Translations under genes and position numbers: made by a program
Notes under the pieces: model-generated
Told to the model about the DNA's origin: nothing
The model's database searches: none
Seen by the model: only the letters and a program-made list of their open reading frames with translations
In this document: positions 9,668 through 30,012 of the stretch, piece by piece
How positions within the stretch are numbered: the first letter of the stretch is position 1
Layout of the letters: the number at the start of each line of letters is the position of its first letter
NCBI RefSeq assembly: GCF_963082655.1
Contig: NC_081552.1
Coordinates: 125,397,494 to 125,461,493 of the forward strand
DNA length: 64,000 nucleotides
Direction: 5' to 3'
From: Stomoxys calcitrans
Taxonomy: Eukaryota > Arthropoda > Insecta > Diptera > Muscidae

Positions 9668-10578
9668 AAAATAAGTAAGAAACAACTAAACGCGTGCTAA
9701 GTTCGGCCGGGCCGAATCTTATATACCCTCCACTATGGATCGCATTTGTCAGGTTCTTTTCTCGGCATCTCTTCTTAGGCAAAAGAAGGATAAACGAAAA
9801 GACTTGATCTGCTATTAGAGCAATATCAATATAGGGTCCGGTTGGGACCACAATTAAATTATACTTTGTAGACCTGTGTAAAATGTCAGCCAATTCGAAT
9901 AAGAATTGCGCCCTTTGGGGGCTCAAGAAGTAAAATAGAGAGATCGATTTATATGAACTGTATCGGGCTAGAGGCCGATTAAGACCACAATAAAAACGTA
10001 TGTTGATGGTCATGAGAGGATCCGTTGTACAAAACTTCAGGCAAATCGGATAATAATTGCGACCTCTACAGGCTCAAGAAGTCAAGATTCCAGATCTGTT
10101 TATATGACAGCTATATCAGGTTATTTACCGATTTCAACCATACTTGGCACAGTTGTTGGATACCATAACGAAATACTTCGTGCAAAAATTCATTCAAATC
10201 GGATAAGAATTGCGCACTCTAGAGGCTCAAGAAGTCAAGACCCAAGATCGGTTTATATGGCAGCTATATCAGGTTATGAACCGATTTAAACCATACTTTA
10301 CACAGTTGTTGAATATCATAACAAAACACGTCGTGCGAAATTCCATTCCATTCGGATAAGAATTGCGCCCTCTACAGGCTCAAGAAATCAAGACCCAAGA
10401 TCGGTTTATATGGCAGCTATATCAGGTTATGAACCGATTTGAACCATACTTGGCACAGTTGTTGGATATAATAACAAAGCACGTCGTGCAAAATTTCATT
10501 CTGATCGGATAAGAATTGCGCACGCTAGAGGCTCAAGAAGTCAAGACCCAAGATCGGTTTATATGGCAGCTATATCAG
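9668..10578 (+). mobile_element. mini-me/DINE-like element, left half (host site of the BEL element)
   Basis: The head (AACTAAACGCGTGCTAAG, GGCCGGGCCGAAT, TATACCCTCCACTAT) and 153-bp units, with marks at 10094, 10247, 10400 and 10553, run up to the BEL insertion. The other half resumes at 22364 in the same unit phase, giving a precise empty-site reconstruction. Confidence 0.85.
10574..10578. repeat. Target-site duplication ATCAG of the BEL element
   Basis: ATCAG lies immediately before the TG of the 5' LTR and again at 22364-22368 immediately after the CA of the 3' LTR. The native 153-bp unit reads TATATCAGGTTATG with one ATCAG, so this is a true 5-bp duplication, the size usual for BEL/Pao. 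Confidence 0.95.
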
Positions 10579-10862
10579 TGGACAAATTTGCATTTGTCCT
10601 TAACTTAAGCTTTAAATATTTTTGAATTTATTACCCTGACTTATAGAGTATTATTGTGAATTATCTATAACATAAGATTTGAATTGCCATTTAGTTCTAA
10701 GTTTGCTATTGAAATGTAATAGAATCTAAGTTATTGTGAATTAATTGTTTTTAAGAGTTTAGTACAAAAGGTTAGCTGTTAACTTTTTATGCCCACTCAC
10801 TTCACTTACTCTACAACCGCAGTCAAGGTGAGCAACACAAGCTATTTCTCCTCTTTTTCCAC

Positions 10863-10868
10863 AATAAA
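10863..10868 (+). terminator. LTR polyadenylation signal AATAAA
   Basis: A single canonical AATAAA in the LTR. The functional copy for 3' end formation would be the equivalent one in the 3' LTR at 22185-22190. Confidence 0.6.
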
Positions 10869-10957
10869 CTCTAACACCATATACTCGTCATAAACCGAAA
10901 TCTAACCATCTTTTTATTTCACACTTTTAATTTTGGGCTACCTCAACCTTTCACTTT

Positions 10958-10992
10958 ACTTATTATTCCTCTGTGTACGAGGAATAATAAGT
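10958..10992 (+). repeat. Perfect inverted repeat in the 5' LTR
   Basis: The arms ACTTATTATTCCTC (10958-10971) and GAGGAATAATAAGT (10979-10992) flank the loop TGTGTAC. The 3' LTR keeps the left arm and loop and then jumps past the right arm, so the 97-bp indel starts at this hairpin. Confidence 0.9.
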
Positions 10993-11140
10993 AGTAAACC
11001 CGCTTACATACAGTCCACTTGTTTCACAGAGGGAATTCCAATAGTGACGTCACAAGGCCAAAGATCGACACACCGCAGCTAATCCGCTCATTCTATTCAC
11101 CCCCGCTACGTACACATAGGAAAACCCCCCAATTTTGTGC

Positions 11141-11182
11141 ATGGTCCTTCGTACGCCGTTCACTGAGAAGACCATTGACTGA
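11141..11182 (+). other. Primer-binding region and 13-codon upstream ORF
   Basis: The TGG directly after the LTR (11142-11144) is the usual start of a tRNA primer-binding site. I could not assign the tRNA from the following CCTTCGTACGCC-like bases with confidence. An ATG overlapping the LTR end (11141-11143) opens a 13-codon frame ending TGA at 11180-11182. Confidence 0.5.
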
Positions 11183-11220
11183 GGTAACCCCATCTCCTTA
11201 CATTGCCCAACATAGTTGTC

Positions 11221-11228
11221 GGTAAGTG
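11221..11228 (+). promoter_or_regulatory. Candidate 5' splice site G|GTAAGTG
   Basis: GGTAAGT is a near-consensus metazoan splice donor about 80 bp after the 5' LTR. Splicing from here to an acceptor near gag (for example AG at 15737-15738 or 15775-15776) would remove the whole leader. Splicing to AG at 21269-21270 would make a subgenomic mRNA for the accessory ORF. This is inferred from consensus only. Confidence 0.55.
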
Positions 11229-12362
11229 AACCTTTTTTTGGTTTTGTTCTTAAATATAAAAAAGGCAAACATACATACATAAAAATCAAGGTGACATACA
11301 TAAAGATCAAAAGAGGTTAAAATTGTGAAAGATTCGAAGTGTTTATGCGAAACAAAGAAGAAGAGGTGCAATCCCTGCATGTATATTCAAAATCGTGGTA
11401 ATTGAAGAAAAGACTGATCATCTCTATTAGTGTCGCAAGTGTATGTATGTATGTAAATGCCTTCCTTTAATCACAATATTCATATAAAGGTGTGCAAAGT
11501 GCAAAGTGTTCATTTGTCTGTCCAGCTTCGTTTGACATAGAGAAAAAAAAAATTCTCTCTAGTGGTTTCGTGTGAAATCTTTTCATTTGAGTACGTTTCC
11601 AACCCTTTTTCTATTGGCAAAAATTCAAATTCAGCTCATCTAAAGACACAAAACGCAAAATTTGACAAAGTTTCATGTAACGGGTCGGAGTCCCGCAATT
11701 GTTATACATACATATCTTTGCAACAAATAGAAAGAGCTTGTGATACATAGATCGCCTATGTGCAACGTTAAAGTTCAGTAACCTTTTTTCACCGTGCAAT
11801 ACATAACTCACAGATTGGATTCTCTCATTCTTTTGAGCAAGAGAGAGAGAGAAGAAACAAGAGATTCGGAGAGAATAGTCAACAAGTGCCATATGCCAAA
11901 TTTGAACGAAAGGAAAGAAGAGCGCGGACAGACAAACAGCACTTAGAAGAAGCAGAAGAGTGAGTTCATAATTTTATGTGGTGCGAAATAGAAGTTGTGC
12001 AGCCTATATGCAATAGAATACAGTCTGTATTTGAAGTACTTATGTGAACGGGAAAGAGAAGGAATGAAAAACAGAAAATTTTAAATAATTTAAAGGAGAA
12101 AAGTTTAATTTATTGCAGTCTGAATAAAGAAATTGTGAAATGATTAACAAGCGAAATTAAAGATTTGTGAATAATTAAAAAAAAGACGAAAGAAGTCTGT
12201 GTAAGCCCGACAGAAAAGTAGAAGAAGATAGAAAACGAAACCGGAAAAAATTTTTAAAGTTTTGGAAATCGATTATAATCGCCCTATCGAAAGGTAAAAT
12301 CAAGTACTTTTCAATTAAAATTAAACTAGCATTCAAGAACGAAACGAACAAGGTTAAAATTA

Positions 12363-14843
12363 TTGCACGAACGTTTTCGATATTGCACTTCCCTCATATC
12401 ACAGCGTTGTTTGGTTGCAATTGCACAGTTCCCTATTATTTATAAGGTGGTTTATTCTTGGCACCTTTGTGATTTTGGGAGAAAGAGAAGTATTGCACTA
12501 GAACTGGGCCTTTTCAAATTCACAGCACTGTTACAAGTCATTGCCTCAACCTGTTATTATTGCACTCATTTTGTTTTCTCCACTATTCGTTTATTTTTGC
12601 ACTCCCTTTCGTTGTCCATGTAAATTATCTGTAAAGATCACTAGCCAATCCATCAAACATCGAACAAAAGGAGGGAAACACAAACATACCTACGGAGACC
12701 TGTCACTTCAAAAATATAACGAAGGCGAAATCAAGACAGAGCACATACCGATTAAAAGACAAGAAAAAAAGGGAAGAAGATAACATTTTGAGATAATACA
12801 CTTTTCCACAGTTCTATTTCCACATCATTTAAAATCAATCAGAAAGGATAAAAGTTGAAACAATTATTATGTTCATTACAAGTGAACATTATTGCATAAT
12901 GTCATGAAAAATATTGCACTTTTCCCTAATTTCCTTATATAATTTGTATAATATTGCACTGTGTACAGAGAAATTATTTATTGCACATTAAAAGCCTTAA
13001 AGACCGTAAAGAATATTGCACACACAGACACAGATGTATTGCACTTATTTCAGCTAAAAATTACTGCCCATAATTCTAATTAATTAAATATCGAGCTTAT
13101 TGCACGGATTGATAATATCGTACGATATTAAAATATCGCATTATTGCACTAAATTGAAAAAATTGTACTACGTTCTAAACATATTGCACAAATTTTTTAA
13201 CACGAACACACCGGTTATTGCGTTGGTTGGACCTGCAGTCCAGAAAGAAGAATAATTGCACATATCCCAACAACAATTTGAAGATTAGTGCCAACTTCCC
13301 ACCTGTTGGGTTTTTTATGGAATGTTACAACGGCTTTCGTATTATATTACCAATCACAGACTTACTTAAATAGTAGAATCACCACTGTGCTTATTATTAT
13401 AGCAGCGCCTTTGTAGCAATAGACAATCATAATTACCGAATTCCAATTATATTGCAATTATATTAACTAAGGCACAGTAGCCTTGTGGCCTTGTTATTGC
13501 ACTGCTCCCGGCTTTTTTTTTGATAAATTTCTTGTTGCACATTTTATATTTATATATTTGAAAATTTGCCCATCTATTAAGCATAGACAAAGAAAAGAAG
13601 AATAAACCAAGCTTTGGTTGTCCGGAATAAGAATAACGAAAACAAAACAAAAACACACTTACGTACATACGTACATACGCACATACGTACAGACAAGGGA
13701 GGCCATCAACCAACTCTGGTTTTCATTGATTTGGTTACGTATGACAGAACGCATGGTACAGTAAGATAGGGTAAAGGGAGAAAATACTGCACTAATCTTC
13801 AAACTAACATAGATATGTATATGCACTGGAAAATCTAATGAATTTATATAATAAATATTTGGTTTATTGCATCGATTGATGAACATTGCACTTGCCACAA
13901 GTCGTAACACTATTACATTTAAATTGCACTTGCCCCTGACGTTTTTAATTGCACGAGTCCCAGGTTGTCATAGTATGAAAAAAGAAATTTTTAAATACTT
14001 AAAGCCATTTGATCGTACTGTTTATTGATTTGAGTCCACTTTTGAACTTCGAATTATCGGAAGGACTCTGCCACAGAGACTAAATTTGCGTAACACACCA
14101 TACATTATTACAGTTGGTTGGAAGTATTGCACCTGTTTAAATCACGGCACGGCAGTCACATTAGCTTATTGGTGGCACATTTACATCGTTTTGTTCACAG
14201 TTCAGGCTGTATAAGGTGTTTGATTATCGTCCGCTAACTATTGAAAAGAATAGGCACAAAGACGAATCAGGACAAAATACACATATGTACATACGTACAT
14301 AGCAGGCATAGCATACACATATGTATATACGTAGATGCACTTCCTCGTTGTTTTGCTTATTACATTGGGTCATTGACTAGATGAAGAATCATCCACCAAG
14401 CATTCAGTGGTGCCAGATGAATTGATTTTTAAATATTTCTGGGATTGTGGTTTTATTTCCATTCGTTTACACACAACTGGTATTTAAGGGACAAGACTGT
14501 TTACGTGCTTGTTTCCCATTGTTGCTTATAAATTGTACAAGTCCCAATTTGTATTTACGTAACGAAAAAGACGAAATTTTCAAAACACTGTCGTCGTATT
14601 CATTCAGTCGTTTAAAGCCACTGGGTTGTGTAGAATATATTGCACTTGTTTTCATGTCAGAAACTGCTAAAACTAAACCTACCTAATATCACATTAACGT
14701 TCCATTGCTATTGCATGTAATTAAAAGTAATTGCACTTGCTCCATATTGCAACGTCACAAATCTCAGTAAAATTATTATTTGAACATTGCTATAATTCAT
14801 TTTTTAACACTACGCTGTTCTCTCACACTCATTAATATTGCAC
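12363..14843 (+). repeat. Array of 24 TTGCAC motifs (mostly TATTGCAC), sense strand only
   Basis: TTGCAC starts at 12363, 12383, 12421, 12493, 12560, 12598, 12914, 12954, 12981, 13016, 13039, 13100, 13144, 13184, 13256, 13497, 13535, 13886, 13924, 13949, 14127, 14640, 14731 and 14838. Of these, 22 are ATTGCAC and 16 are TATTGCAC. I saw no GTGCAA in the same interval. By a rough hand estimate for AT-rich sequence, under one copy is expected. Flanks are not homologous, so this is not a simple tandem repeat: only the motif is kept, sometimes followed by a C-rich run (CTTCCC, TTTTCCC, TGCCCC, TGCTCCCGG). Spacings of 38-40 bp recur six times. Confidence 0.9.
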
Positions 14844-15776
14844 CCAGTTTATTGTGTTTGATCATTCGCTATTCTTATTGCGAATGGATAGGAGGAAGTT
14901 CAAGACAAGATAAGAAAACTTACGCATGTACATGCGTACAGGTCAAGCATATAATTCGTAAACACTTTTCCTCTTCGTTTTGTCTATGTTCTACTGCCTT
15001 GGGGTCATTGACTAGATAAAAGACTCAATCACATATATAGTGTTGCCGGATTTGGGGATTTTTGATTAGTTGCGGGATTGTGACTTTCAGTGCATATTGC
15101 CGAAACGCGACACCCTATTTCACTTATCTCTGCTACACCCCAGACACATTGAATTCTTACAACATTTCTGGTGTGAACTAGTTTTGCAGGTTGGATTTGT
15201 TGAATACGTTGAACTTTTTTTTTTTTAAGGGCTTGTGTTCTTGTGAGAGAATTCACACGAATTACATTGCCGAAACCGCAATTTGGGTTTGTTAGTCAAG
15301 CTCTTTTGAATTCGAATGCCTTTCGACAGTATATCGCTTTTTACCGCTATGGTTATGCTCATCTCGTACGTTTAAATCTCCCGCTTACGATCTAAAGGAT
15401 TATTTGGATTTTCCTGAAATCTCGAGTTTATTATTAAGTCTAAGAGGGCAGCTCCTTTTAGACGACCGCGTAGTTCTGAATTAGAAGGCTATATTTCGGC
15501 ATTGATTGCATACCCCGCTACCTTACTAATTCAGAATTTTGTTGATTCTCTCAGACGCTGAAGCAACGATTTGGTTGTTTATTGTAGCTTACGCTTGCAT
15601 TTACTCGAACCTCAAATCCAAATCGTTTCTCTATCTCTCTGTTTCTCTACAAAGAGAGTTCAACCGAAACAATACCAAATAATTTTTAGACTTACTGAGA
15701 ACATAGCCAACTCTGCGCTTCTCTCCCTTTCGATCCAGTTTTCTTCTCTCGCTCTATTGTACGGGACCGATTTAAG

Positions 15777-18700
15777 ATGAGCTTGGAAAACGCAGCCTCA
15801 GATTTAGCATCCCTACCTTCGGGATCTAATAATCTTACAAGCTCGTCTTCCTCAGTGAGAAATTCACCAAGTCAGGACAAGTTTCTCTTTGACTGTGACC
15901 ATTTGATCAACTTTTGCACTCAGTTTGAACAGAGTGATATTCAAGATCAAACGGATTCGGTATTGGAGGTGAAGTTGGAGGACTTGGAGAATAGGTGGCA
16001 ACGGCTTCAAGCTACCTATGAAGGTCTCATGCTAGCTCCAAGTAACACCAATACCAAGGACTTTAGGGCGAACGCGAGGATAAATTTCAACGCCAGCTCC
16101 GAAGCTTATTACACAGCTAGATCGCAGATTCTCGACATTCTGAGAATCTCGGGGGGAAATGCTCGCCAAAACGCGAGGCACAGCCTTATTCCGGCTTATA
16201 TTCCCCAACCCTCGGCTAACCATCCTTCTCAAGAGATTGGTAGTGGCTACATCAAGGTCCCTCCCTGTGATACTGAGGTATTTAAAGGAGGCTACGAGGA
16301 ATGGCCGTCATTCCGTGACATGTTCACGGCGGTTTACGCAAACCATCCGAAATTGACTCGAGCTCAAAAGTTATATCATCTGCGAAATAAGACTAGGGGG
16401 GCAGCCGGCGCCATAGTCAAAAGATACACTCTCTGTGATGAGAATTTTGAGCTCGCTTGGAGTGCTCTCAAGGCTCGGTATGAAAATAAGCGAGTCTTAG
16501 TAGATAATCAGTTGAAAATCCTCTTCAACATCCCAACGGCCTCTGTGGAGAATAGTGAAGCAATTCACAGGATTCAATCCACAGTTAACGATTGTCTCTG
16601 CACTCTAAGAACTCTTGACGTCAATGTGGAAAGCTGGGATCCAATCTTGTTATACTTGGTATCAACCAAGTTGCCAGATGAGACACTGGCTCTCTGGGAA
16701 CAATCACTCACATCTCACCGTGAACTTCCCACTTGGAACCAGCTAGACGAGTTTCTCATTAGCCGATACGAGATCGTAGAACGTCTCTCAAGCATGAAGG
16801 CCACAAAAACTAGAAGTTCGCTCCCATCTGAAAACAGTGGTAAGATCCAAACTTATCACTCGCAAGAAAAGCTCAGTTCTTCTTGCCCCCTATGCAGTTC
16901 CGATCACTCGATAAGAAGTTGTGGCCAGTTTCGCAAATATACTGCACAGCAACGCATAGATTTTGCGTTTAAACACAAATTATGCATTAATTGCTTATCC
17001 TCGTCTCATCTCAAGACAAATTGCAAAAGTACAAACACTTGCATCGTTTGTCACAAGCCACATCATACCCTTCTTCACCTTAAAGGTAAACCTGAGGGAA
17101 AATCTGAGGATCAAGTACCTCATACCAGTCATAACGACAACAAAGTTCCGAACCAATCATCTGATCCAAGCCCAAAGGCTTCATCTCATATTGAAGCGCC
17201 CTCAACTTCAGGGGCAAGACGCCCCTCTCATGTTCAGGCCAATTTCTCGGCCAACAATGAAATGATTTTGCTACGAACAGCTCTGGTTCGCATTGAACAT
17301 CATGGGGAGCTGTTTACTCTAAGAGCCCTCATTGATCCTGGTTCTCAACGAACATTCATTACTCAAAGAATGCAGAAGCGCTTGCAACTTCCCACTACTA
17401 AAGCGCACTTTGAGATTTTTGGAATTGGCGAACAAACTCAAACGTCGGAAAAGGAATGCCAACTCGTCATTGTTGCCGAGAAGTACGATGTCCGCTTTAC
17501 TGTCTCGGCAATAGTTTTGCCTAAAGTGACAAAATGGCTCCCTTCAGTCTCATTCGAGATTTCAAATCCCTCAGACTTGGAGGAGCTTGACTTAGCCGAT
17601 CCAAACTTTAATAAATCCGCTCAAATTGACCTAATTTTAGGCAATGATTCTGAACGATTCATAAATATTGATGGAATCAGGAAGAATATATGTGGCGATA
17701 CCTCAGCATACAATACAGTTTTTGGCTGGGTATTGAGCGGTCCAATGCAAACTGACAGAATTTTCTCATTTTCCACGAACGTGGTTGAATCCGAGGATGT
17801 AAAAATAAGCGAACTTCTGAGAAAATTCTGGGAGCAAGAAGAGATACCCATGGCTTCCCCTCTGTGTGAGGAAGATCAGTTTTGCGAGGAGTTCTACTCG
17901 AAAACTACCTCCAGATCCCCGGATGGTAGATACGTCGTGAGACTGCCTTTCAAAGCAGAATTCTCCGACTCCCTATCTCTTGGCTCATCTCGTTTTCTCG
18001 CTCTGGCTCAATATAATCGAATGGAGTCAAAGCTCTCCGATGATCCCGAGCTAAATACCGAATATAATTCAGTTTTGAATGAGTACATCTCTCTCGGTCA
18101 TGCTGAAGAGACCTCATCCCAAGAAATAAACTCCGGTGGAAAATACAATTCGTTCTATCTCCCCCACCATGCAGTCGTCCGTCCAGAGCATAAGTCCACT
18201 AAAGTCAGAATCGTCTTTAACGCGTCTCGTAAGAGCAAATCGGGCCAGTCTTTAAATGATGTGCTCCATACTGGGCCTACGCTCCAGACTGATTTGACAT
18301 CAGTACTTCTCAATTGGCGAAAGTATAGATATGTTTTCTGCGGGGACATTCAAAAGATGTATAGGCAGATATGGCTACACCCTATCGACAGAGCTTATCA
18401 GCGTATACTTTTCCGGCCAGATCCCAAGGGACCGGTAAAAGATTTTGAGTTAAAAACCTGAACTGGCCTGAACTGTGCGCCGTTTTTAGCAATTCGCACG
18501 CTCCTACAACTCGCCTCGGATTCTGAAAGTGAATTTCCCGATGTTGCAGAAACATTGAGAAAAGAGACATATGTCGACGACATTTTGTCCGGAGGCTTCT
18601 CTATAGAGGACACTATTCGAGCACAAGAGAACTTAAGCTCAGTCCTTAAGCATGCAGGGTTTCCTCTTGTCAAAATGACTGCAAACAACCCCAAATTGCT

Positions 18701-19907
18701 TGCTCATCTCCCACAAGAGAGTCTATATGACTCCGAGTTCTTGCGCTTTAACGACTCGAGCACTACCAAGACACTTGGCATCAAATGGAATGCGCTAACT
18801 GATTCCTTCAGTTACACTCTCGGCGCCATTCCGACGGACCAACCCATTAGTAAACGCAAGGTACTTTCAGCCGTTGCTCAATTATTTGATCCTGCAGGTT
18901 GGGTTGCTCCTGTAGTAATTAGATCGAAGATATTGATGCAACAACTTTGGCTCGAAGGTCTTGATTGGGATGATGAACTCAGCCCAGAGACTTTGCTGAA
19001 GTGGAACGCTCTGGTATCCGATTTGAAGCACATCGGGTCAATTTCTATTCCTAGATGGCTGCAGTACCATCCCTCCGATATAGTTGAAATACACGGATTC
19101 TCTGACGCGTCTCAAGCGGCAATGTGTGCATGCGTTTATATCCGGTGCCAGACTCTGAAATATGTTGTCTTCTCTAACTTGCTCGTTGCGAAAAGCAAGG
19201 TAGCACCACTAAAACCCGTCTGCCTGCCTCGATTGGAGCTCAATGGGGCATTTCTGCTCGCTAAGCTCGTCAACCTCGTACTATGTACTTTTGATTTGAA
19301 TATCAGTGGCATAACTCTTTGGACGGACTCTTCAATAGTACTTGGTTGGTTGACAAAGCCACCATGGACCTGGGAGACATACGTGGCAAATCGAACGTCG
19401 AAGATACACGATCTCTTACCCGGGGGGACATGGCGACATGTCCCTACTCACGACAATCCAGCTGACCTCGGAACGAGAGGCTGCAGGCCACAGGATCTCA
19501 TCGGCAATTCGTTGTGGTTTAATGGCCCGACTTGGCTAACGAACCCACCATCAGAATGGCCCAACCGAAATCCGTTGGTCTCTCCGGAAATAGGGAGGCG
19601 GCAGAATATTCAGGTCATGCATGGAACTATCGAGGACTCTGACATCTTGATAAGGTTTTCTTCCTATACCCGTGCCTTGAGAGTGATCTCTTTTGTATTT
19701 CGTTTTTACCATAACTGCCTGAGTAGATATAGGGGTACCGCGAGGAATTCCTCCCCCATCCTCACCCAAGATGAAGTGACTTTCACGAAAAATCGTCTCA
19801 TAATGCTGGCTCAAATTAGATGGTACCCAGAGGAGTACAAGACTGTAAGTAGATCCGAGGAATTGTCTTGCAAAAGTTCACTGCAATGCTTGAACCCTGG
19901 ACCGTAA
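15777..19907 (+). pseudogene. BEL/Pao Gag-protease-RT-RNase H reading frame with internal TGA
   Basis: The start ATG follows AAG at 15774-15776. Domains by residue: DUF1759-like Gag about 165-350 (EEWPSFRDMF, LKARYENKRVLVDNQL). Zinc knuckles at about 369 (CPLCSSDHSIRSC), 403 (CINCLSSSHLKTNC) and 422 (CIVCHKPHHTLLH). Retropepsin at about 516 with DPGSQRTFI. RT from about 805 (KVRIVFNASRKSKSGQSLND, then GDIQKMYRQIW). A TGA at 18459-18461 stops the frame at residue 894. The same frame then reopens with the RT YVDD box (about 18570), a connection, and RNase H motifs (GFSDASQAAM near 19095, LWTDSSIVLGWL near 19320), ending at 19907. Compared with relatives, the stop region also seems to lack a codon. 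The TGA is followed by ACT, not the leaky CTA context, so simple loss of function is most likely. Confidence 0.9.
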
Positions 19908-21132
19908 CAAAGTCCTACGGGTGAATGGTCGGCTGGCCGCCTCTTCCCTACCGTATAACGAGAAATTCCCAGTTATACTTCCTGGTAACTCTCGTCTCTG
20001 TCAGTTGTATTTGCTCCACTTGCACACGTTCCTGGCCCATGGAGAATGTATTTTAATGTGTCGTATGGTCCAGACAGAATTTTACATTTCTCGTCTAAAA
20101 CCAAGGGTGAAAAGTATCATCCATAAATGCAAGACATGCATAATTTTCAAGAAAAGATCTTGCGCCCAGATAATGGCACCGCTCCCTCAAGATAGATGTA
20201 CGATAACTCCGGCATTTCACGTCACGGGCATAGACTTTGCAGGGCCTTTTGACATTAAGAGTTCGCCACTACGCCGTTCCCCTCTCTTAAAGGGTTATGT
20301 CAGCATCTTTGTATGCTTCGCCACGAAAGCCGTACATCTGGAACCATGCTCGGAACTTTCCACGGCGGCATTTGAGGCCGCTTTTGCTCGTTTTCTTGGG
20401 AGACGAGGCCTACCTCGGAAGGTAATTTCGGATAATGGTAGGAATTTCGTTGGTGCCAGTCGCAAGCTTCTACGGGAATTCAGGAGTTTTATCCAAGTAG
20501 TAGCAAGCGATATATCTGAGAAATACTCGACACAGGGGTTTGAATGGCAATTTATACCGCCCCATGCTCCACATATGGGTGGACTTTGGGAGGCAGCCGT
20601 TAAGAGCTTCAAACACCATTTTAAACGAGTGGCTGGAGCTCACTTGTTCACCTTCGAACAGTTTGCTACCGTTCTTGCGCGGATCGAAGGAGTCTTGAAC
20701 TCACGTCCAATTTCCGCCGTCTCTGAGGACCCGAACGACCTCACAGCTTTGACTCCCGGGCACTTTTTGAAGGGTTCGCCAATCATGTCATTTCCGGAGC
20801 CGAATGCGCAAGACATATCCCTGATAAATAGATGGCTAAGGCTGAAGGCGATACATCACCAGTTCGCTACACAATGGAAGGAAGATTACCTCAAGGCTCT
20901 TCAAAAACGATATAAGTGGAAAAACACTTCTCCTAATGTAAAGATCGGTGATCTTGTAGTCGTAATTGACGATTTGCTGCCCCCTAGCGACTGGCGATTG
21001 GGGAGAGTAGTTAAGACTCACGCTGGGTCCGATAGCAATACAAGAGTTGCGGAGGTGAGGATTGCCTCCGGTATCATTACTCGACCGATTGTGAAATTAT
21101 GTCTCCTTCCCTTTCTGGACCAACCCCAGTAG
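19897..21132 (+). pseudogene. BEL/Pao integrase with C-terminal DUF5641-like domain (frameshifted from RT)
   Basis: The frame is +1 relative to the upstream pol frame; the break is a 1-2 nt indel near 19890-19898. Zinc-binding HHCC region: HLHTFLAHGECILM...CKTCIIFK (about 20010-20155). DDE core: first D in GIDFAGPF (about 20228), second in SDNGRNF (about 20430), E in GGLWEAAVKSF (about 20590). The tail KIGDLVVVIDD...WRLGRVV matches the DUF5641 domain usual at the C terminus of BEL integrases. The domain itself reads intact to the stop at 21132, but no start of its own is evident. Confidence 0.9.
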
Positions 21133-21277: not shown

Positions 21278-21883
21278 ATGCCTGGTCAAGATATGTACAA
21301 ATGCCATCTATGTAAGAAAAGGCACGCTCTTAGATATTGCCCAAAATTTGTCAAGATGACCGTAGAGGAAAGACGAGCGGCCGTTCGACAACACAACTAT
21401 TGTCGCAATTGCTTAGCGCGAAGCCACACCATCGAAGAATGTGAATCTTCTGGAACATGTCGAAAGTGTGGATTTCAGCACCACACTATGTTGCACCCAC
21501 GAAAATTCACCGTGCAACAAACGAAATCCAACACTTCGACCAGATCCATCCAGTCTCGCCTCCAAAAGCAACAGCCTGCAAGATCCATCGCTTCCACCAA
21601 GCCACCGAAAAGGTCAGCAAAGTCCCACTCTACCGCCATTCACAAATCATCTCGACATCAGCAACTCACACGCCGTACCAAACAGCAACACACCCAGCAA
21701 CGCACGCATCAACGCAAGAAGCCTCAGAAGACAAAAAGAAACCACCAAAAGCCTGGTAAGAGGCAACAACAGCAACTTACAAAGAAGCAATCTTCAACCC
21801 CTCAACCAAATGTCTTAATCCTCTCGGAAGCTATAAAGTCCTTAGCGACCGTATTGTGCGCTACACCATCAAACTTTGCGTAA
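21278..21883 (+). CDS. Accessory nucleocapsid-like protein: three zinc knuckles plus basic tail (201 aa)
   Basis: Intact ORF, ATG to TAA. Residues about 9-75 hold CHLCKKRHALRYC (CX2CX4HX4C), CRNCLARSHTIEEC (same spacing) and CRKCGFQHHTMLH (CX2CX4HX3H). They share the linker pattern F-x-K-x-T-x3-R with the Gag knuckles at 16884-17080, so this module appears to be a copy of, or a relative of, the element's own Gag C-terminal domain. Residues about 80-180 are dominated by K, R, Q, S and T with no predicted membrane segment, so it is not an Env. A nucleic-acid-binding role is likely from the knuckles and charge; the exact function is unknown. It stays open while pol in the same copy is broken, and it ends 18 bp before the 3' LTR. 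Expression by splicing is suggested by the acceptor at 21270. Confidence 0.8.
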   Translation: MPGQDMYKCHLCKKRHALRYCPKFVKMTVEERRAAVRQHNYCRNCLARSHTIEECESSGTCRKCGFQHHTMLHPRKFTVQQTKSNTSTRSIQSRLQKQQPARSIASTKPPKRSAKSHSTAIHKSSRHQQLTRRTKQQHTQQRTHQRKKPQKTKRNHQKPGKRQQQQLTKKQSSTPQPNVLILSEAIKSLATVLCATPSNFA

Positions 21884-21900: not shown

Positions 21901-22363
21901 TGGACAAATTTGCATTTGTCCTTAACTTAAGCTTTAAATATTTTTGAATTTATTACCCTGAATTATAGAGTATTATTGTGAATTATCTATAACATAAGAT
22001 TTGAATTGCCATTTAGTTCTAAGTTTGCTATTGAAATGTAATAGAATCTAAGTTATTGTGAATTAATTGTTTTTAAGAGTTTAGTACAAAAGGTTAGCTG
22101 TTAACTTTTTATGCCCACTCACTTCACTTACTCTACAACCGCAGTCAAGGTGAGCAACACAAGCTATTTCTCCTCTTTTTCCACAATAAACTCTAACATA
22201 TACTCGTCATAAACCGAAATCTAACCATCTTTTTATTTCACACTTTTAATTTTGGGCTACCTCAACCTTTCACTTTACTTATTATTCCTCTGTGTACGAG
22301 CTAATCCGCTCATTCTATTCACCCCCGCTACGTACACATAGGAAAACCCCCCAATTTTGTGCA
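21901..22363 (+). repeat. 3' LTR (463 bp)
   Basis: It matches the 5' LTR except for C to A in the 'ccctgacttatag' stretch, a 3-bp deletion (CCA) after 'ctctaaca', and absence of the 97-bp segment after 'tgtgtacga'. AATAAA is at 22185-22190. ATCAG follows at 22364. Confidence 0.95.
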
Positions 22364-22793
22364 ATCAGGTTATGAACCGATTTGAACTATACTTGGCGCA
22401 GTTGTTGGATATCATAACCAAACACGTCGTGCTAAATTTCATTCCAATCGGATAAGAATTGCGCACTCTAGAGGCTCAAGAAGTCAAGACCCAAGATCGG
22501 TTTATATGGCAGCTATATCAAAACATGGACCGATATGGCCCATTTACAATACCAACCGACCTACACTAATAAGAAGTATTTGTGCAAAATTTGAAGCGGC
22601 TAGCTTTACTCCTTTGGAAGTTAGCGTGCTTTCGACAGACAGACGGACGGACATGGCTAGATCGACATAAAATGTCACGACGATCAGGAATATATATACT
22701 TTATGGGGTCTCAGACGAATATTTCGAGTAGTTACAATCAGAATGACGAAATTAGTATACCCCCCATCTTATGGTGGAGGGTATAAAAATTTT
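22364..22793 (+). mobile_element. mini-me/DINE-like element, right half
   Basis: It continues the unit interrupted at 10578, then the tail: CAAAACATGGACCGATATGG, GACAGACAGACGGACGGACA, a TA-rich tract and ATGGTGGAGGGTATA at 22772-22786. Confidence 0.85.
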
Positions 22794-23270
22794 AGGTCAT
22801 ACAAATATTCCATTTTTCGCAGTGCTGCAGAAACAACTTTAAGAGCAGATTTATTTAATTGGTGCTGTTGCAGGCCATTCCAAAACACTGTTTTTGTAGG
22901 ACTCGTAAATGGACATATTTTGCAGGCCCTTCAGCAGGCATATATCAAGCAATGGGAGGTGCATGACATCGTGCCAATGACACACAATGTTATTTTGAAA
23001 TCGTGTTTACATTTGTGTAGAAGTACTGGTAATTGGCTTTGCAGGCATATGCGTATGCATGTATATCGTCTCTTAATTCCCGAGCGTACATGTAGACATA
23101 TGTCTATAAAACAACAATACATTTGCGAATACATGCTGATTATAACGCGATTTATTCGTATTTGACACACATGAGGGAAGTGTAGCATAGGTTCTGCTAA
23201 AAATTTATACAAAATAAATTTAGTTGAATGACATAATTTTATTTTATTATACATACCAAGCTTCTGTCAA
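22794..23270. other. Unassigned intron-like sequence
   Basis: Not obviously repetitive within the window. A 140-codon open stretch crosses 22743-23165 but begins inside the repeat tail, has no domain and no codon pattern that persuades me. Probably host intron. Confidence 0.4.
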
Positions 23271-23850
23271 TCCATCAAATATTAAAGCTTCTAGGAACCG
23301 AACAAGGATGATCGAGAGACTGGTTTATATGGGAGCTATATCAGGTTATAGACTGATTTGGACCGTAATTGGCACAGTTGTTGAAAGTAGTAACAGAACA
23401 CTACATGCAAAATTTCGCCAAATCGAACAAACATTAAGGCTTCCAGGCGCTCAAGAAATTAAATCTGGAGATCGGTTTATATGGGAGTTATATCAGGTTA
23501 TTATTAGACCCATTTGGACCGTACTTGACACAGATGTTGCAAGTAGTAACAGAACACTACATACAAAATTGGACAAGAATTGCGGCTGGTAAGGCCTCAA
23601 GAAGTCAAATCGGAAGACCGGTTTATATGGGAGCTATATTTAAATCTGAACCGATATGGCCCATTTGCAACGACCAAAAGTCAATAGTAAGTATCTGTGC
23701 AAAATTTCAAGCGGCTAGCTTTACGCGTTCGACCGCTATCGTGATTTCGACAGACGAACGGACGGACATGGCTAGATCGACTGAGAACGTCGAGACGATT
23801 ATGAATATGTATACTTTATGGGATCTTAGACGAATATTATAAAGTGTTAC
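23271..23850 (+). mobile_element. Diverged mini-me/DINE-like element
   Basis: Units read 'ggtttatatgggagctatatcaggttatagac...ttgaaagtagtaacagaacactacatgcaaaattt', followed by the tail with GACAGACGAACGGACGGACA and 'tatgtatactttatgggatcttagacgaatatt'. The GGGAGC and AGTAGTAACAG variants mark an older subfamily than the flanking copies. Confidence 0.7.
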
Positions 23851-24128
23851 TATATATAATAAAAAATATATAATATAAGAAAAATATATATAACGTAATA
23901 TAAAATCTAACTGTTAAAATGCAACATTAAATGTCTTTTTTAAGTGTCAGATAGGTTTATGATATTATATAACTTGTCAAATTGATAGCATATTCGACGA
24001 AAGGGATCATTGTTTGCAAAATTTGTGGTATGAAATGTTGTACTTAATAATTCAAAATTTCTGGTAGGTCTGATCGGAAAATTCTGGCTTAATTTTTCCA
24101 TGGATGATATTCATAACAAAATTAACAT
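23851..24128. other. AT-rich spacer
   Basis: TA-rich sequence; no gene or repeat recognised. Confidence 0.4.
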
Positions 24129-25190
24129 TCAGCATAGCTCTGCGGCTGGTTTCATAAGGTCCAGTCTCAACTCATATGTAGGTACAGACTGCCGATCCCA
24201 CCCATGTCCTCGGAGGCAAAACAAAAGGAATTGCTTTTGAACAGATTCGACCAGATTAGAGTGAAGAGTATATAAAAAAAAATATAAAGAAGTGTATACA
24301 TTTTTTTGCCATAGGAATATCATTAAGCTGTGCTCCAATGTTTCATCAATCCAAGGGCGCCGTAAGCATAACCAACTGTCATAGAGATATGGTAACGAAA
24401 GTTTAAACGTGGATCCATAGGTAGCCCAATATATTTAAATGAATCGGCTGATTCAAGCTCATCAGATCCGATAAAATAATTTGTGATAAAAGGACTTTGT
24501 CTAGAAAAGCGCAACATTTTGCATTTGGAAATATTCAATTGCATAACGTTAATAGTGCACTAATCGTAAAAGAGATCATGATCGGACTGGAGATAATACT
24601 GATCATCTGGGTCATTAGAAGACCTAAAAATTTGCAGGTCATCGGCAAACATCAAAATATTAGAATGCTTTATTATGTTAAATAAATCATTAATGAAAAG
24701 ACAAAAAAAGATCGGGCCGAGATGGCTACCTTGGGGAACACTGGAGGAAACAATGATGGTTTTAGAGATCGCATTACCAAATTTCACATTTTGTGTACGG
24801 CCAATCAGATATGAACTTAACATACCGAATTACTGAAACCATATAAATCTAATTTCATCATCAGAAGTGTATAATTAACCTTATCGAACGCTTTACTAAA
24901 ACCCATCGTTGACAAGACATGTAAATTCCAACAGATTTGTTATTTGTTTGTTTGCCCTGGATCCGTGTTGTCATGAAGATAGTAATATGGAAACCTGATG
25001 AGAAATAGATTCTGTCAATATCTTCTCCATTAACTAAGTATGAAGATGCCCCTGTTATAACATGCATCATTACAACTTCCACATTTAAACAATGGTAGAT
25101 ATCCAAATTTAATGAATTATTAAAAAGTATCAATAAAAGATAGCAAAGTTGATCCGCACACCGTTTCAAAATGCTAGCTGGCACACCTGC
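24129..25190 (-). pseudogene. Jockey/CR1-like LINE reverse transcriptase relic
   Basis: On the minus strand, 25184-24861 carries degenerate RT N-terminal sequence (ASILKRCADQLCYLLLILFNNSL). The frame at 24823-24560 has SSVPQGSHLGPIFFCLFINDL and MFADDLQIF, the RT motifs around the FADD active site. The frame at 24544-24323 has LNISKCKMLRFSR and YIGLPMDPRLNF. At least three frames are used, so the gene is broken. No 3' UTR poly(A) is evident. Confidence 0.8.
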
Positions 25191-25218
25191 AGACTAGCAA
25201 GAAATGTAGATTTTAACA

Positions 25219-26316
25219 AGTAAAAGCGTGCTAAGTTCGGCCGGGCCGAATCTTATATACCCTCCACCATAGATCGCATTTGTCGAGTTCTTTTCCCGGC
25301 ATCTCTTCTTAGGCAAAAAAGGATATAAGAAAAGAGTTGCTCTTCTATTAAAACGATATCAAGATATGGTCCGGTTCGGACCACAATTAAATTATATGTT
25401 GGAGACCTGTGTAAAATTTCAGCCAATTCGTATAAGAATTGCGCCCATTGGGGCTCACGTAGTAAAATAGAGAGAACGATTTACATGGGATCTGTATCGG
25501 GCTATAGACCGATTCAGACCATAATAATGGTCATGAGAGGATCCATCGTACAAAATTTCAGGCATATCGGATAATAATTGCGACCTCTAGGGGTCAAGAA
25601 GTCAAGATCCCAGATCGGTTTATATGGTAGCTATATCAGGTTATGAACCGATTTGAACCTTATTTGACACAGTTGTTGAAAGTAAAAAAAAAAATACGTC
25701 ATGCAAAATTTCAGCCAAATCGGATAGGAATTGCGCCCTCTAGAAGCTCAAGAAGTCAAATCCCCAGATCTGTTTATATGACAGCAATATCAGGTTATGG
25801 ACCGACCAACCATACTTGGCACAGTTGTTGGATATCATAACGAAATACTTCGTGCAAAAATTCATTCAAATCGGATAAGAATTGCGCACTCTAGAGGCTC
25901 AAGAAGTCAAGACCCAAGATCGGTTTATATGGCAGCTATATCAGGTTATGTACCGATTTGAACCATACTCGGCACAGTTGTTGCATATCATAAAAAAACA
26001 CGTCGTGCAAAATTTCGTTTTAATCAGATAAGAATTGCGCCCTCTAGAGGCTCAAGAAGTCAAGACCCAAGATCGGTTTATATGGCAGCTATATCAGGTT
26101 ATGGACCGATTTGAACTATACTTGGCACAGTTGTTGGATATCATAACAAAACACGTCGTGCAAAATTTCATTCCAATCGGATAAGAATTGCGCTCTCTAG
26201 AGGCTCAAGAAGTCAAGACCCAAGATCGGTTTATATGGCAGCTATATCAAAACATGGACCGATATGGCCCATTTACAATACCAACCGACCTACACTAATA
26301 AGAAGTATTTGTATAA
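25219..26316 (+). mobile_element. mini-me/DINE-like element lacking its tail
   Basis: Complete head (ACAAGTAAAAGCGTGCTAAG to GGATATAAGAAAAGAG) and 153-bp units. It stops at 'ctaataagaagtatttgt' before the (GGAC)n tail. The following bases (26317-26465) are unassigned. Confidence 0.8.
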
Positions 26317-26465
26317 GTTGCATAAAAGTCGTCACTCTTATTCGTATTCACCAAGTATTCTTTGCCTACACTACGTTTCTTCCCGGCAAGTCAATTTAGG
26401 ACCATTTACATTAGGGAGATGACTTATTGATTTTTTTCGCAAATATTATTTCCTGTTGCACGATT

Positions 26466-26945
26466 ATGGGTTGCTTTCTATATACAGGATTGGACAACCC
26501 TTGTGTTGTAATCTGCTAACTGACAGCTCTATCGTAAAGCTTGACATTTTGGAGGTTGTACGTACTCAGAACGTTTTGATATACGAGCGCAATTTTTTGT
26601 TGTTTACAATAACTTAAAATATTCATCACGCCCAAAAAATAGGATTAAATCGTAAACATTTTCGTGCGATTATTTTTTACAACCTTCGATGTCGATTAAC
26701 TCAACAACAGTGCATCGATGAACTTAGTTCAATTTTTTATGAAACTCCATTGAGAACCAGTGTTTATCGATTTAATGGTGAATTCAACCGTGGTCGTATT
26801 TCACTCCAAGACGAATTTAGTGAACGTCGTCCAAAATCAGTTGTTGTTCCACAACCCATTGATGCTTTGCGCCAACTGATATTGCTAGATCGTAATGTGA
26901 TCAATCGCGAGAGACTCTAAGGTTACTGCATGAACATTTGATTGT
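26466..26945 (+). pseudogene. mariner transposon, 5' part
   Basis: The left end GGGTTGCTTTCTATATAC resembles the terminal repeat of the copy at 37227. The frame then gives FRAIIFYNLRCRLTQQQC and NGEFNRGRISLQDEFSERRP, the mariner transposase N-terminal DNA-binding region. It is interrupted at 26946 by a mini-me element and resumes at 28424. Confidence 0.8.
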
Positions 26946-28423
26946 AAAACAAGTAAAAGCGTGCTAAGTTCGGCCGGGCCGAATCTTTTATACCCTCCAC
27001 CATGGATCGCATTTGTCGAGTTCTTTTCCCGGCATCTCTTCTTAGGCGAAAAAGGATATAAGAAAAGAGTTGCTCTGCTATTAAAACGATATCAAGATAT
27101 GGTCCGGTTCGGACCACAATTAAATTATATGTTGGAGACCTGTGTAAGATTTCAGCCAATTCGTATAAGAATTGGGCCCATTGGGGCTCACGAAGTAAAA
27201 TAGAGAGAACTATTTATATGGGATCTGTATCGGGCTATAGACCGACTCAGACCATAATAAACACGTTTGTTTATGGTCATGAGAGGATCCGTCGTACAAA
27301 ATTTCAGGCATATCGGATAATAATTGCGACCTCTAGGGGTCAAGAAGTCAAGATCCCAGATCGGTTTATATGGCAGCTATATCAAGTTATGAACCGATTT
27401 GAACCTTATATGACACAGTTGTTGAAAGTAAAAATAAAATACGTCATGCAAAATTTCAGCCAAATCGGATAGGAATTGCGCCCTCTAAAAGCTCAAGAAG
27501 TCAAATCCCCAGATCTGTTTATATAACAGCTATATCAGGTTATGGACCGATTTCAACCATACTTGGCACAGTTGTTGGATACCATAACGAAATACTTCGT
27601 GCAAAAATTTATTCAAATCGGATAAGAATTGTGCCCTCTAGAGGCTCAAGAAGTCAAGACCCAAGATCGGTTTATATGGCAGCTATATCAGGTTATGGAC
27701 CGATTTAAACCATACTTGGCACAGTTGTTGGGTATCATAACAAAACACATCGTGCGAAATTCCATTCCATTCGGATAAGAATTGCGCCCTCTAGAGGCTC
27801 AAGAAGTCAAGACCCAAGATCGGTTTATATGGCAGCTATATCAGGTTAAGAACCGATTTGAACCATACTTGGCACAGTTGTTGGATATAATAACAAAACA
27901 CGTGGTGCAAAATTTCATTCTGATCGCATAAGAATTGCGCACGCTAGAGGCTCAAGAAGTCAAGACCCAAGATCGGTTTATATGGCAGCTATATCAGGTT
28001 ATGGACCGATTTAAACTATACTTGGCGCAGTTGTTGGATATCATAACCAAACACGTCGTGCAAAATTTCATTCCAATCGGATAAGAATTGCGCACTCTAG
28101 AGGCTCAAGAAGTCAAGACCCAAGATCGGTTTATATGGCAGCTATATCAAAACATGGACCGATATGGCCCATTTACAATACCAACCGACCTACACTAATA
28201 AGAAGTATTTGTGCAAAATTTCAAGCGGCTAGCTTTACTCCTTTGGAAGTTAGCGTGCTTTCGACAGACAGACGGACGGACGGACATGGCTAGATCGACA
28301 TAAAATGTCACGACGATCAAGAATATATATACTTTATGGGGTCCCAGACGAATATTTCGAGTAGTTACAAACAGAATGACGAAATTAGTATACCCCCCAT
28401 CTTATGGTGGAGGGTATAAAAAT
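26946..28423 (+). mobile_element. mini-me/DINE-like element inserted in mariner
   Basis: Full-length copy, head at 26950 and tail ending ATGGTGGAGGGTATA at about 28418. Unit marks include 27666 and 27819 (153 bp). Around 15 bases of mariner coding sequence seem to be missing at the junction, so no clean target duplication is visible. Confidence 0.85.
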
Positions 28424-28838
28424 CCTACAAAAATTGCCAATCGCTAAAAAAGGCTCGTTTCGATTGGTCGAAAGAAATGCTCCAAAAATACAATCGCGGT
28501 GCTTCAAAACACGTCATTGACATGGTGACAAGCAATGAATCGTGGATTTACGCGCATGAGCCCGAAAGTAAATAGCAGTCGACTATATGGGTGTTTCAAG
28601 ATGAGCCAAATCCAATAAAAGTTGCTGGCGCACGAAGAACTTCTAAGGAAATGATCGAATGTTTTTTTGGAAAAACTGGTCATGTCGCAATCGTGCCACT
28701 AAAACAATGCAGTCAATTCTGAGTGGTATACAACCATTTGTTTGCCAGTTGTCTTCCAAAAAATAAAGAAAACCAACCGCCGAAGACTGATCTTTCTTCA
28801 TTACGACAATATGTCTTACACATTGGCTCAAACAACTC
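28424..28838 (+). pseudogene. mariner transposon, middle part
   Basis: It encodes KARFDWSKEMLQKYNRGASK, then SNESWIYAHEPESK, the region around the second catalytic Asp of the mariner DD34D triad. In this copy the position where mariners have D (in D-E-S-W) reads N-E-S-W. In-frame stops occur (TAG near 28575). A second repeat insertion cuts it at 28839 and the 3' third is gone. Confidence 0.75.
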
Positions 28839-30012
28839 CATTTTTTATACCCTCCACCATAGGATGGGGGTGTACTATTTTCGTCATTCTGTTTGTAACT
28901 ACTCAAAATATTCGTCTGAGATCCCATAAAGTATATATATTCTTGATCGTCGCGACATTTTATGTCGATCTAGCCATGTCTGTCCGTCCGTCTGTCTGTC
29001 GAAAGCACGCTAACTTCCGAAGGAGTAAAGCTACCCGCTTGAAATTTTGCACAAATATTTCTTATTAGCGTAGGTCGGTTGGGATAGTAAATGGGTCATA
29101 TCGATCCATGTTTTGATATAGCTGCCATGTAAACCGATCTCGGGTCTTGACTCTTGAGCCTCTAGAGTGAGCAATTCTTACCCGAGTGGAGTGAAATTTT
29201 GCACGACGTTTTTTGTTATGATATTCAACAACTGCGTTAAATATGTTTCAAATCGGTCCATAACCTGATATAGCTGCCACATAAACCGATCTTGGATCTT
29301 GACTTCTTGAGCCTCTAGAGTGCGCAATTCTTATCTGATTGTAATGAAATTTTGCACGACGTGTTTTGTTATGATGGCCAACAACTGTGCGAAGTATGGT
29401 TCAAATCGGTTCATAACCTGATATAGCTGCCATATAAACCGATCTTGGGTCTTGACTTCTTGAGTCTCTAGAGTGCGCAATTTTTATCCGATTTGAATGA
29501 ATTTTTGTACGAAGTATTTTGTTATGATATCCGTCCAACTGTGCCAAGTATGGTTCAAATCGGTCTATAACCTGATATAGCTGTCATATAAATAGATCTG
29601 GGGACTTGATTTCTTGAGCTTCTAGGGGTCGCAATTATTATCCGCTTTGCCTGAAATTTTGTACGACGGATCCTCTCATGACCATCAACATTCGTGTTTA
29701 TTATGGCATGAATCGGTCTATAGCCCGATACAGCTCCCATATAAATCGATCTCTCTATTTTATTACTTGAGCCCCCAAAGGGCGCAATTCTAATTCTAAT
29801 TGGCTGACATTTTACACAGGTCTCCAACATATTATTTAATTGTGGTCCAAACCGGACTATATCTTGATATCGCTCTAATAGCAGAGCAAATCTTTTCTTA
29901 TATCCTTTTCTACCTAAAAAGAGATGCCGAGAAAAGAACTCGACAAATGCGATCCATGGTGGAGGGTATATAAGATTCGGCCCGGCCGAACTTAGTACGC
30001 TTTTACTTGTTT
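28839..30012 (-). mobile_element. mini-me/DINE-like element (minus strand) cutting mariner
   Basis: Tail first (TATACCCTCCACCATAGGAT at about 28847), short (GTCC)n at about 28980, diverged inner units, head ending CGCTTTTACTTGT at about 30010. It belongs to a slightly diverged subfamily (GAGCCCCCAAAGGGCGCAAT). Confidence 0.8.

Follow-up and report, generated by a model that had tools for sequence, protein, structure and literature searches.

The leader of a BEL/Pao retrotransposon in the genome of Stomoxys calcitrans carries a long, one-way array of ATTGCAC motifs; on the antisense strand of that leader, these probably form clustered target sites of the host miR-92/310 microRNAs. When read as its reverse complement, the motif has the layout of a canonical site for the host miR-92a, with a seed match to guide nucleotides 2-8, an A opposite nucleotide 1 and pairing at nucleotides 12-15. 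The conserved bases beyond the core and the pattern of mismatches agree with a microRNA target carried by the other strand, a reading that was absent from the first-pass annotation of this DNA.

A one-way motif array in the leader of a BEL/Pao element

The window (the whole 64,000-nt stretch of DNA that was analysed) includes an LTR retrotransposon on its + strand, bounded by a 5′ LTR of 563 bp (10579..11141) and a 3′ LTR of 463 bp (21901..22363). As the blocks shared by both LTRs are 100% identical, the insertion is young; about 100 bp of the 5′ LTR, near 10980-11077, are missing from the otherwise identical 3′ LTR. Matches to DUF1759, Peptidase_A17 and DUF5641 above the Pfam cut-offs confirm the assignment to BEL/Pao made in the first-pass annotation. 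The leader begins with a first exon running from the LTR to a splice donor (11142..11221, + strand; donor TCG/GTAAGT at 11222), and its remainder (11222..15776, + strand) is probably intron at least in part; 42 ATGs are found in 11142-15776. The open frame that follows (15777..18461, + strand) encodes Gag-protease and the start of pol, with DUF1759, aspartyl-protease-like matches and zinc knuckles, and is 100% identical over its full length to the Stomoxys calcitrans protein P0001. The pol part with Peptidase_A17 (Pao) occupies 18555..19907 and the integrase part with DUF5641, in which H2C2 and rve stay under their cut-offs, occupies 19921..21132, both on the + strand; in the window copy the Gag-Pol frame is broken at 18461-18555. 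IMG/VR scans that used the Pol frame or a protein alignment as query retrieved zero relatives.

Downstream of these domains, 21278..21883 (+ strand) encodes a stand-alone nucleocapsid-like zinc-knuckle protein of 201 aa with a basic tail, which over 58 residues shares 41% identity with the zinc knuckles of the element's Gag. Its relatives occur in Stomoxys, with 45-55% identity for the closer named ones, in Haematobia (closest 43%) and in Musca; the L014 family has relatives too (55%; in pieces L017 and L020). No match was obtained in L018 and L019, which are 3′ pieces of other relatives. The protein is conserved among muscid BEL/Pao elements.

The array itself lies at 12362..14843. On the + strand of 12363-14843, TTGCAC occurs 24 times, 22 of them as ATTGCAC and 16 as TATTGCAC, and with both strands counted the reverse complement of TTGCAC is found zero times in that span, exactly as first annotated. 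On the - strand, the 22 ATTGCAC copies are 22 GTGCAAT matches to the miR-92/310 seed. They start at 12362, 12382, 12420, 12492, 12559, 12913, 12953, 12980, 13015, 13038, 13099, 13143, 13183, 13255, 13496, 13885, 13923, 13948, 14126, 14639, 14730 and 14837, and the TTGCAC copies lacking the leading A start at 12597 and 13535. The excess stands out from simulated sequence: at one mismatch or less, TATTGCAC is present 30 times in 12301-14900, and the top count reached by any non-low-complexity 8-mer in 2 × 150 order-2 simulations was 18. Among 86 other 2.6-kb windows, the highest counts were 31 and 28, both due to another word and both in the stretch at 41-44 kb, which is rich in a 153-bp satellite. 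Diverged 153-bp satellite arrays lie also at 9950-10709, 22364-29813 and elsewhere; TTGCAC often recurs in them at unit length, and these copies explain part of the window-wide TTGCAC excess.

The sense-only orientation that had been claimed is true of the array but does not extend to the entire leader, as five antisense TTGCAC (two of them ATTGCAC) lie just upstream of the array at 11366-11799. The antisense copy at 11794 is also found in the related leaders L009 and L010. For the recurrent 38-40 bp spacing, the six occurrences are of 37-40, and regularity of this kind was rejected (p = 0.10 in a simple simulation). The sequence between motifs had been described as non-homologous, and the flanks are indeed near background identity (upstream flank 0.288 between sites vs. 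background 0.275, p 0.02; positions +14..+45 0.273 vs. 0.274), but a few old internal duplications exist, namely 12360-12445 with 13864-13948 and 14194-14454 with 14832-15087; in the latter pair, just one member has the motif. As to rejected candidates, a 3′ splice-site element was dismissed (YAG follows 7/24 sites, null 0.31), and an unconstrained motif search drifted toward pyrimidine tracts and was discarded.

The array among relatives and in copies made from spliced RNA

Near-identical leaders are found in six more copies in the host genome (L002, L003, L004, L005, L006 with L008, and L007), two of which have internal deletions. The array is also present in more distant copies (e.g., L009, L010, L014, L025-L030), a point that had been set beforehand as a refutation test. 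Sense and antisense ATTGCAC per fetched piece number 13/1 in L009, 9/2 in L010, 15/1 in L014, 4/0 in L011, 4/0 in L015 and 3/0 in L016. When the window is compared with L009, core columns are 94% identical and the aligned flanks 76.5%; the second refutation test set beforehand, equal mutation of motif and flanks, was thus passed as well. Of the 24 sites, leaving aside the unaligned ones (7 for L009, 14 for L010, 17 for L014 and 21 for L011), those intact are 12/17 in L009 (random 7-mers 19.7%, binomial P 8e-6; motif anagrams 19/116), 6/10 in L010 (random 20%; anagrams 20/82), 4/7 in L014 (random 16%; anagrams 6/32) and 1/3 in L011.

To find further families, the genome was scanned with TATTGCACNNNTCCC, which gave 126 matches vs. 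36 for a reversed-pattern control. From the 100 scan matches listed, 20 regions were picked by hand and, later, the 12 remaining listed matches to the GGCTCCC variant were taken as well. Nine of the 20 picked regions (L025-L031, L036 and L037) are leaders of the same clade by gag, LTR or leader similarity, with sense/antisense ATTGCAC counts of 11/1 (L025), 14/1 (L026 and L027), 16/0 (L028), 14/0 (L029), 15/0 (L030), 2/0 (L031) and 9/1 (L036 and L037 each). Regions not placed in the clade include L033 (4/0) and L032 (3/0); L034, L035 and L038-L044 show one copy, which in L035 and L038 means one per strand. The Gag of L025-L027 is 88-90% identical to P0001, yet their array region fails to align with that of the window. 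The array of L026 shares with the window array one 30-bp match only, and the arrays of L028, L029, L030 and L036 gave no alignment to it at E 1e-3. Related element types with an array in the leader number at least seven, and for four of these the array cannot be aligned to the window array; since L026, L029 and L030 share alignable pieces (75-93%), the seven leader types are not fully independent.

Over the seven array spans (window, L014, L026, L028, L029, L030 and L036), which were drawn around the sites, ATTGCAC is found 102 times in sense and 0 times in antisense. Antisense copies outside the spans number 2 in the window, 1 in L009, 2 in L010 and 1 each in L014, L026 and L036. The first-pass annotation had taken the strand bias to point to RNA. 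RNA is the likely level of action, but the bias alone is no proof of it, because internal duplication is visible in the arrays of L028, L029 and L030.

Selection for a short motif, as had been proposed, agrees both with the intact sites in L009 and with the persistence of arrays in unalignable leaders; these comparisons show the motif to be under selection and kept in one orientation while the surrounding sequence turns over. The other proposal, decay of an old tandem array to its conserved core, could draw on the local internal duplications, but neutral decay is contradicted by the difference in identity between core and flanks (94% vs. 76%) and by the retention of arrays where leaders no longer align, and we regard it as highly improbable. 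The five copies of the L030 type that were seen (L030, L049, L050, L052 and L053) all hold 15 sites. As a lineage of the L031 type seen in nine copies (L031, L045-L048, L051 and L054-L056) has just 2-3 sites in the fetched pieces, the array is favoured yet not indispensable.

Two copies bear on the RNA that carries the array. At the exon junction, L011 reads ..TTGTCG/ATGAAG.. and L015 reads ..TAGTCG/ATGAAG.., and the unspliced sister copy (L013/L012) reads ..TTGTCG/GTAAGT .... TTGTAG/ATGAAG... In L011 (near 4671) and L015 the GT-AG leader intron has been cleanly lost, as expected of retrotransposed spliced RNA. Two independent events of this kind are likely, since L011 shares 99.8% identity with the unspliced copy and less, 99.0%, with L015. 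The lost intron, of 9,265 bp, includes 11 sense and 1 antisense ATTGCAC, and the following 1,500 bp keep 4 sense copies. The window donor at 11222 is homologous to the donor used in L011 and L015, and it is conserved in L025-L027, L030, L031, L036 and L037, in 10/12 of the pieces L045-L056 and, as TTCA/GTAAGT, in L028. In the fetched pieces of L014 and L016 it was not found, and the L009 sequence has diverged at this place. The window has a good match to a 3′ splice site at 15738, which relatives do not conserve. BARE, a plant LTR retrotransposon, does not belong to BEL/Pao. It likewise produces spliced and unspliced RNAs from one element, splicing there favouring Gag-only RNA, and the abstract describes no motif array (PMC3735527).

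As a conserved splice donor precedes the array, unspliced RNA would be enriched in it. This position, together with the strict orientation and the presence of an accessory nucleocapsid-like protein in two array-bearing families, would suit sites on the sense RNA that are bound by an RNA-binding protein, be it Gag, the separate zinc-knuckle protein or one of the host, in packaging, export or localisation of unspliced RNA. The packaging, dimerisation or localisation signal suggested in the first-pass annotation belongs here. No hairpin or other structural signal was detected, and sense-strand accessibility at the sites is not raised in the window copy (p 0.94) but is slightly raised in L014 (p 0.02). 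Moreover, the two intron-less copies integrated with 4 ATTGCAC remaining in each, and the nine-copy lineage spread with its 2-3; although a few sites do remain in every case, these copies argue against a strict cis requirement, and a packaging role is weakened because spliced, array-poor RNA can be retrotransposed. Zinc knuckles, in addition, usually prefer G-rich sites. We consider a sense-RNA function to be distinctly unlikely.

The motif as a probable miR-92/310 site on the antisense strand

The host genome encodes at least four mir-310/92 hairpins, three of them above the Rfam cut-off. Their guides begin with TATTGCACTTGTCCC.., AATTGCACTCGTCCC.. and TATTGCACAATCCCC.. (twice); a tandem pair with identical guides is located at C5:76517398-76517903, and two hairpins lie 22 kb apart at C2:224251244-224273530. 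Identity to a guide on one strand implies complementarity to it on the opposite strand. Twenty-two sites in the window match nucleotides 2-8 of the host miR-92/310 guides exactly, and the full sense motif corresponds to nucleotides 1-8 and 12-15 of the host miR-92a, its reverse complement being GGGA-NNN-GTGCAAT-A. The word TATTGCAC, which is the start of the miR-92/310 guide, was noted as such before the flank profile was made; as the likeness to miR-92 was first noticed by eye, its significance is inflated.

The presumed continuation of the guide, TTGTCCCGGCC, matches the window sites at 90 positions vs. 56.9 (sd 6.9), in a register-specific manner, and 0.2% of letter-shuffled templates reach this value. 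On 48 non-redundant sites of other families the same template gives 134 matches vs. 105.6 (sd 9.5; p 0.002), and TCCC alone gives 70/192 vs. 38.6. By family, TCCC matches amount to 29/60 vs. 12.6 in L014, 21/52 vs. 11.3 in L009 and, weakly, 6/12 vs. 2.7 in L016, with nothing beyond chance in L010 (8/36 vs. 8.1); as some of the L014 and L009 sites have homologues among those of the window, these tests are not independent. In the window, putative sites with a TCCC supplementary match to guide nucleotides 12-15 lie on the - strand at 12419..12433, 12912..12926, 13254..13268, 13495..13509 and 13947..13961, and one with a CCC match to nucleotides 13-15 lies, also on the - strand, at 13922..13936.

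We then profiled pairing position by position over 83 pooled sites from seven families, near-duplicates being dropped when at least 15/22 flank bases agreed; some pooled sites may share ancestry even so. The pool excludes L009, L010, L016, L025, L027, L031-L034 and L037, as well as sites without ATTGCAC. The base at nucleotide 1 is T in 66 sites, A in 11, C in 6 and G in 0, which places an A opposite in 66/83. Pairing at guide nucleotides 12-15 reaches 0.53, 0.37, 0.35 and 0.39 vs. the expected 0.35, 0.20, 0.20 and 0.20; at nucleotides 9-10 and 16-21 it is at, below or near background, with a slight excess at nucleotides 11 (0.23 vs. 0.14) and 22 (0.47 vs. 0.35). At least three contiguous pairs within nucleotides 12-17 are formed by 19/83 sites; over 500 sets of random anchors the mean was 1.6 and the highest count 6. 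Mean duplex energy is -15.2, compared with -13.6 (sd 0.58) when the 3′ half of the guide is shuffled (1/300 reach the real value) and -13.2 (sd 0.35) when flanks are swapped. In a second run, shuffled 3′ halves equalled the real guide in 0/150 cases for miR-92a; the corresponding figures are 7% for miR-92b and 13-18% for the C5 pair.

The distribution of imperfect copies points in the same direction. In the seven leader types, TATTGCAC is present 86 times in sense and 0 times in antisense (0.75 expected), and its single-mismatch variants 51 times in sense and 7 times in antisense (10 expected). The sense mismatches fall at guide nucleotides 1 (16), 7 (10) and 8 (11), and at nucleotides 2-6 they number 2, 2, 1, 4 and 5. 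This preference for nucleotides 1, 7 and 8 over 2-6 follows the order in which microRNA seeds usually tolerate mismatches. Of the spacings between neighbouring sites, 0/95 are under 16 nt (10.3 expected) and 45 are of 16-44 nt (26 expected).

Several observations count against the miR-92/310 reading or lie outside it. Among them are the nine-copy lineage with its 2-3 sites and the two intron-less copies, which retrotransposed with few sites. The supplementary match is limited to the 19/83 sites mentioned above, and L010 has none beyond chance. Positions -6..-3 are A-rich (A in 31, 31, 33 and 28 of 48 sites of other families) and the position of nucleotide 10 has an excess of G (26/83), features that the guide does not predict.

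A long gapped site also suits a multi-zinc-finger DNA-binding protein, and the array might act at the DNA level, as an enhancer or insulator of the provirus bound by a host protein of this class, in the manner of the Su(Hw) array in the gypsy leader. The location is the same (the 5′ leader of an LTR element), the sites are clustered and one-way, and the A-rich upstream positions and the C tract downstream recall the Su(Hw) sites, which likewise consist of upstream AT-rich, central and downstream modules (PMC5825117). Both motifs contain a TTGCA core, and the internal duplication seen in some arrays can account for the orientation. The gypsy cluster (PMC2374998) is alike in being a group of TTGCA-containing motifs in the leader of an LTR element; the present one differs in belonging to BEL/Pao, in having 24 sites over 2.5 kb and in its core, TATTGCAC rather than YRYTGCATAYYY. 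Per leader, sites of the canonical Su(Hw) type (within one mismatch of YRYTGCATAYYY) number 0-2 in sense and 0-1 in antisense, within or near chance, and enrichment is also lacking for the downstream flank of Su(Hw) sites (p 0.10 in the window, 0.08 in other families). A canonical Su(Hw) array was therefore rejected, as sites scored against YRYTGCATAYYY or TGT(T/A)GC(A/C)TACTTTT are not above chance and only the core is similar. For any multi-zinc-finger protein, the guide-like extension and the tolerance at nucleotides 1, 7 and 8 are left unexplained, and the lack of antisense ATTGCAC across the seven array spans speaks against it too. We regard this DNA-level explanation as unlikely, if worth keeping in view.

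On the sense strand the motif reads as the beginning of the miR-92 guide and continues in register, which is also what a captured cluster of miR-92-like microRNA genes would give. Nucleotides 16-21 are not conserved, and the array, unlike the mir-92/mir-310 genes whose guide nucleotides 1-8 and 12-15 it shares, is without precursor hairpins. Mean folding z is 0.08 at the 24 window sites vs. 0.10 at control windows, and -0.11 (lowest -2.1) at 48 sites of other families, whereas a host gene with a Rfam mir-310 match, used as folding control, gives -3.6. For mature-like segments, their own flanks are no better pairing partners than the flanks of other sites (permutation p 0.67 and 0.50). A Rfam scan of the window gave no match at cut-off, and its sub-threshold matches in the leader include neither the mir-310 nor the mir-92 family. 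We rejected a pre-microRNA cluster on these grounds, and such a captured cluster would be a most surprising outcome.

Proposed role and significance

Under the reading that we favour, miR-92/310 sites would be displayed on antisense transcripts, probably marking them for decay. An antisense transcript would cross the leader, starting within the element or reading through from outside, e.g., from piRNA-source loci. AGO1 loaded with miR-92/310 would bind it at several sites, the bound transcript would be destroyed or kept inactive, and the sense genomic RNA would be spared antisense pairing and the production of siRNA or piRNA. The setting would be the germline and the egg, where the miR-92/310 family is abundant in Drosophila. 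According to PMC4593001, mir-310-313 and mir-92a/b represent 31.3 and 17.4%, respectively, of microRNA reads in unfertilised eggs of D. melanogaster, the seed family thus accounting for about half. In a second version, with the same anatomy, the array would serve as a sponge for miR-92/310. A broader proposal is that antisense arrays of 9-22 exact seed sites arose in this retrotransposon family and were rebuilt again and again, so that the miRNA pathway removes the antisense transcripts that feed piRNA and siRNA production; a transposon would then be setting one small-RNA pathway against another. This is offered tentatively and may well prove wrong.

Close likenesses are CDR1as/ciRS-7 and other natural clusters of microRNA sites, which also have many seed matches for one microRNA (73 predicted miR-7 sites; PMC6108476, see also PMC7390531) on a strand antisense to another gene. 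Here, in contrast, the carrier is the leader of a multi-copy retrotransposon, the microRNA is miR-92/310 and the transcript is a predicted one. A short repeated motif is likewise found in the LTR-element leaders of PMC8872304; the motif there, ATCCATCGCTGAT, forms tandem repeats and is unrelated in sequence to the array described here. Among the papers listed by the literature searches, neither such an array in BEL/Pao nor an antisense microRNA-site array in a retrotransposon was found, and the main text of the BEL/Pao survey PMC3118150 makes no mention of leader, untranslated, insulator or tandem repeat.

Even if a protein proved to be the binder, the array would be a strongly selected and repeatedly rebuilt cis-element of this BEL/Pao clade. 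Should the miR-92/310 reading be right, it would explain a long one-way motif array of a kind otherwise ascribed to insulators or packaging, and it would provide a natural multi-copy cluster of microRNA sites in an insect. The elements would have been selected as antisense-strand targets of a common germline microRNA, and a mobile element would be employing that microRNA, made by its host, either against its own antisense RNA or by way of it. MicroRNA regulation and transposon silencing would then be linked in an unexpected direction.
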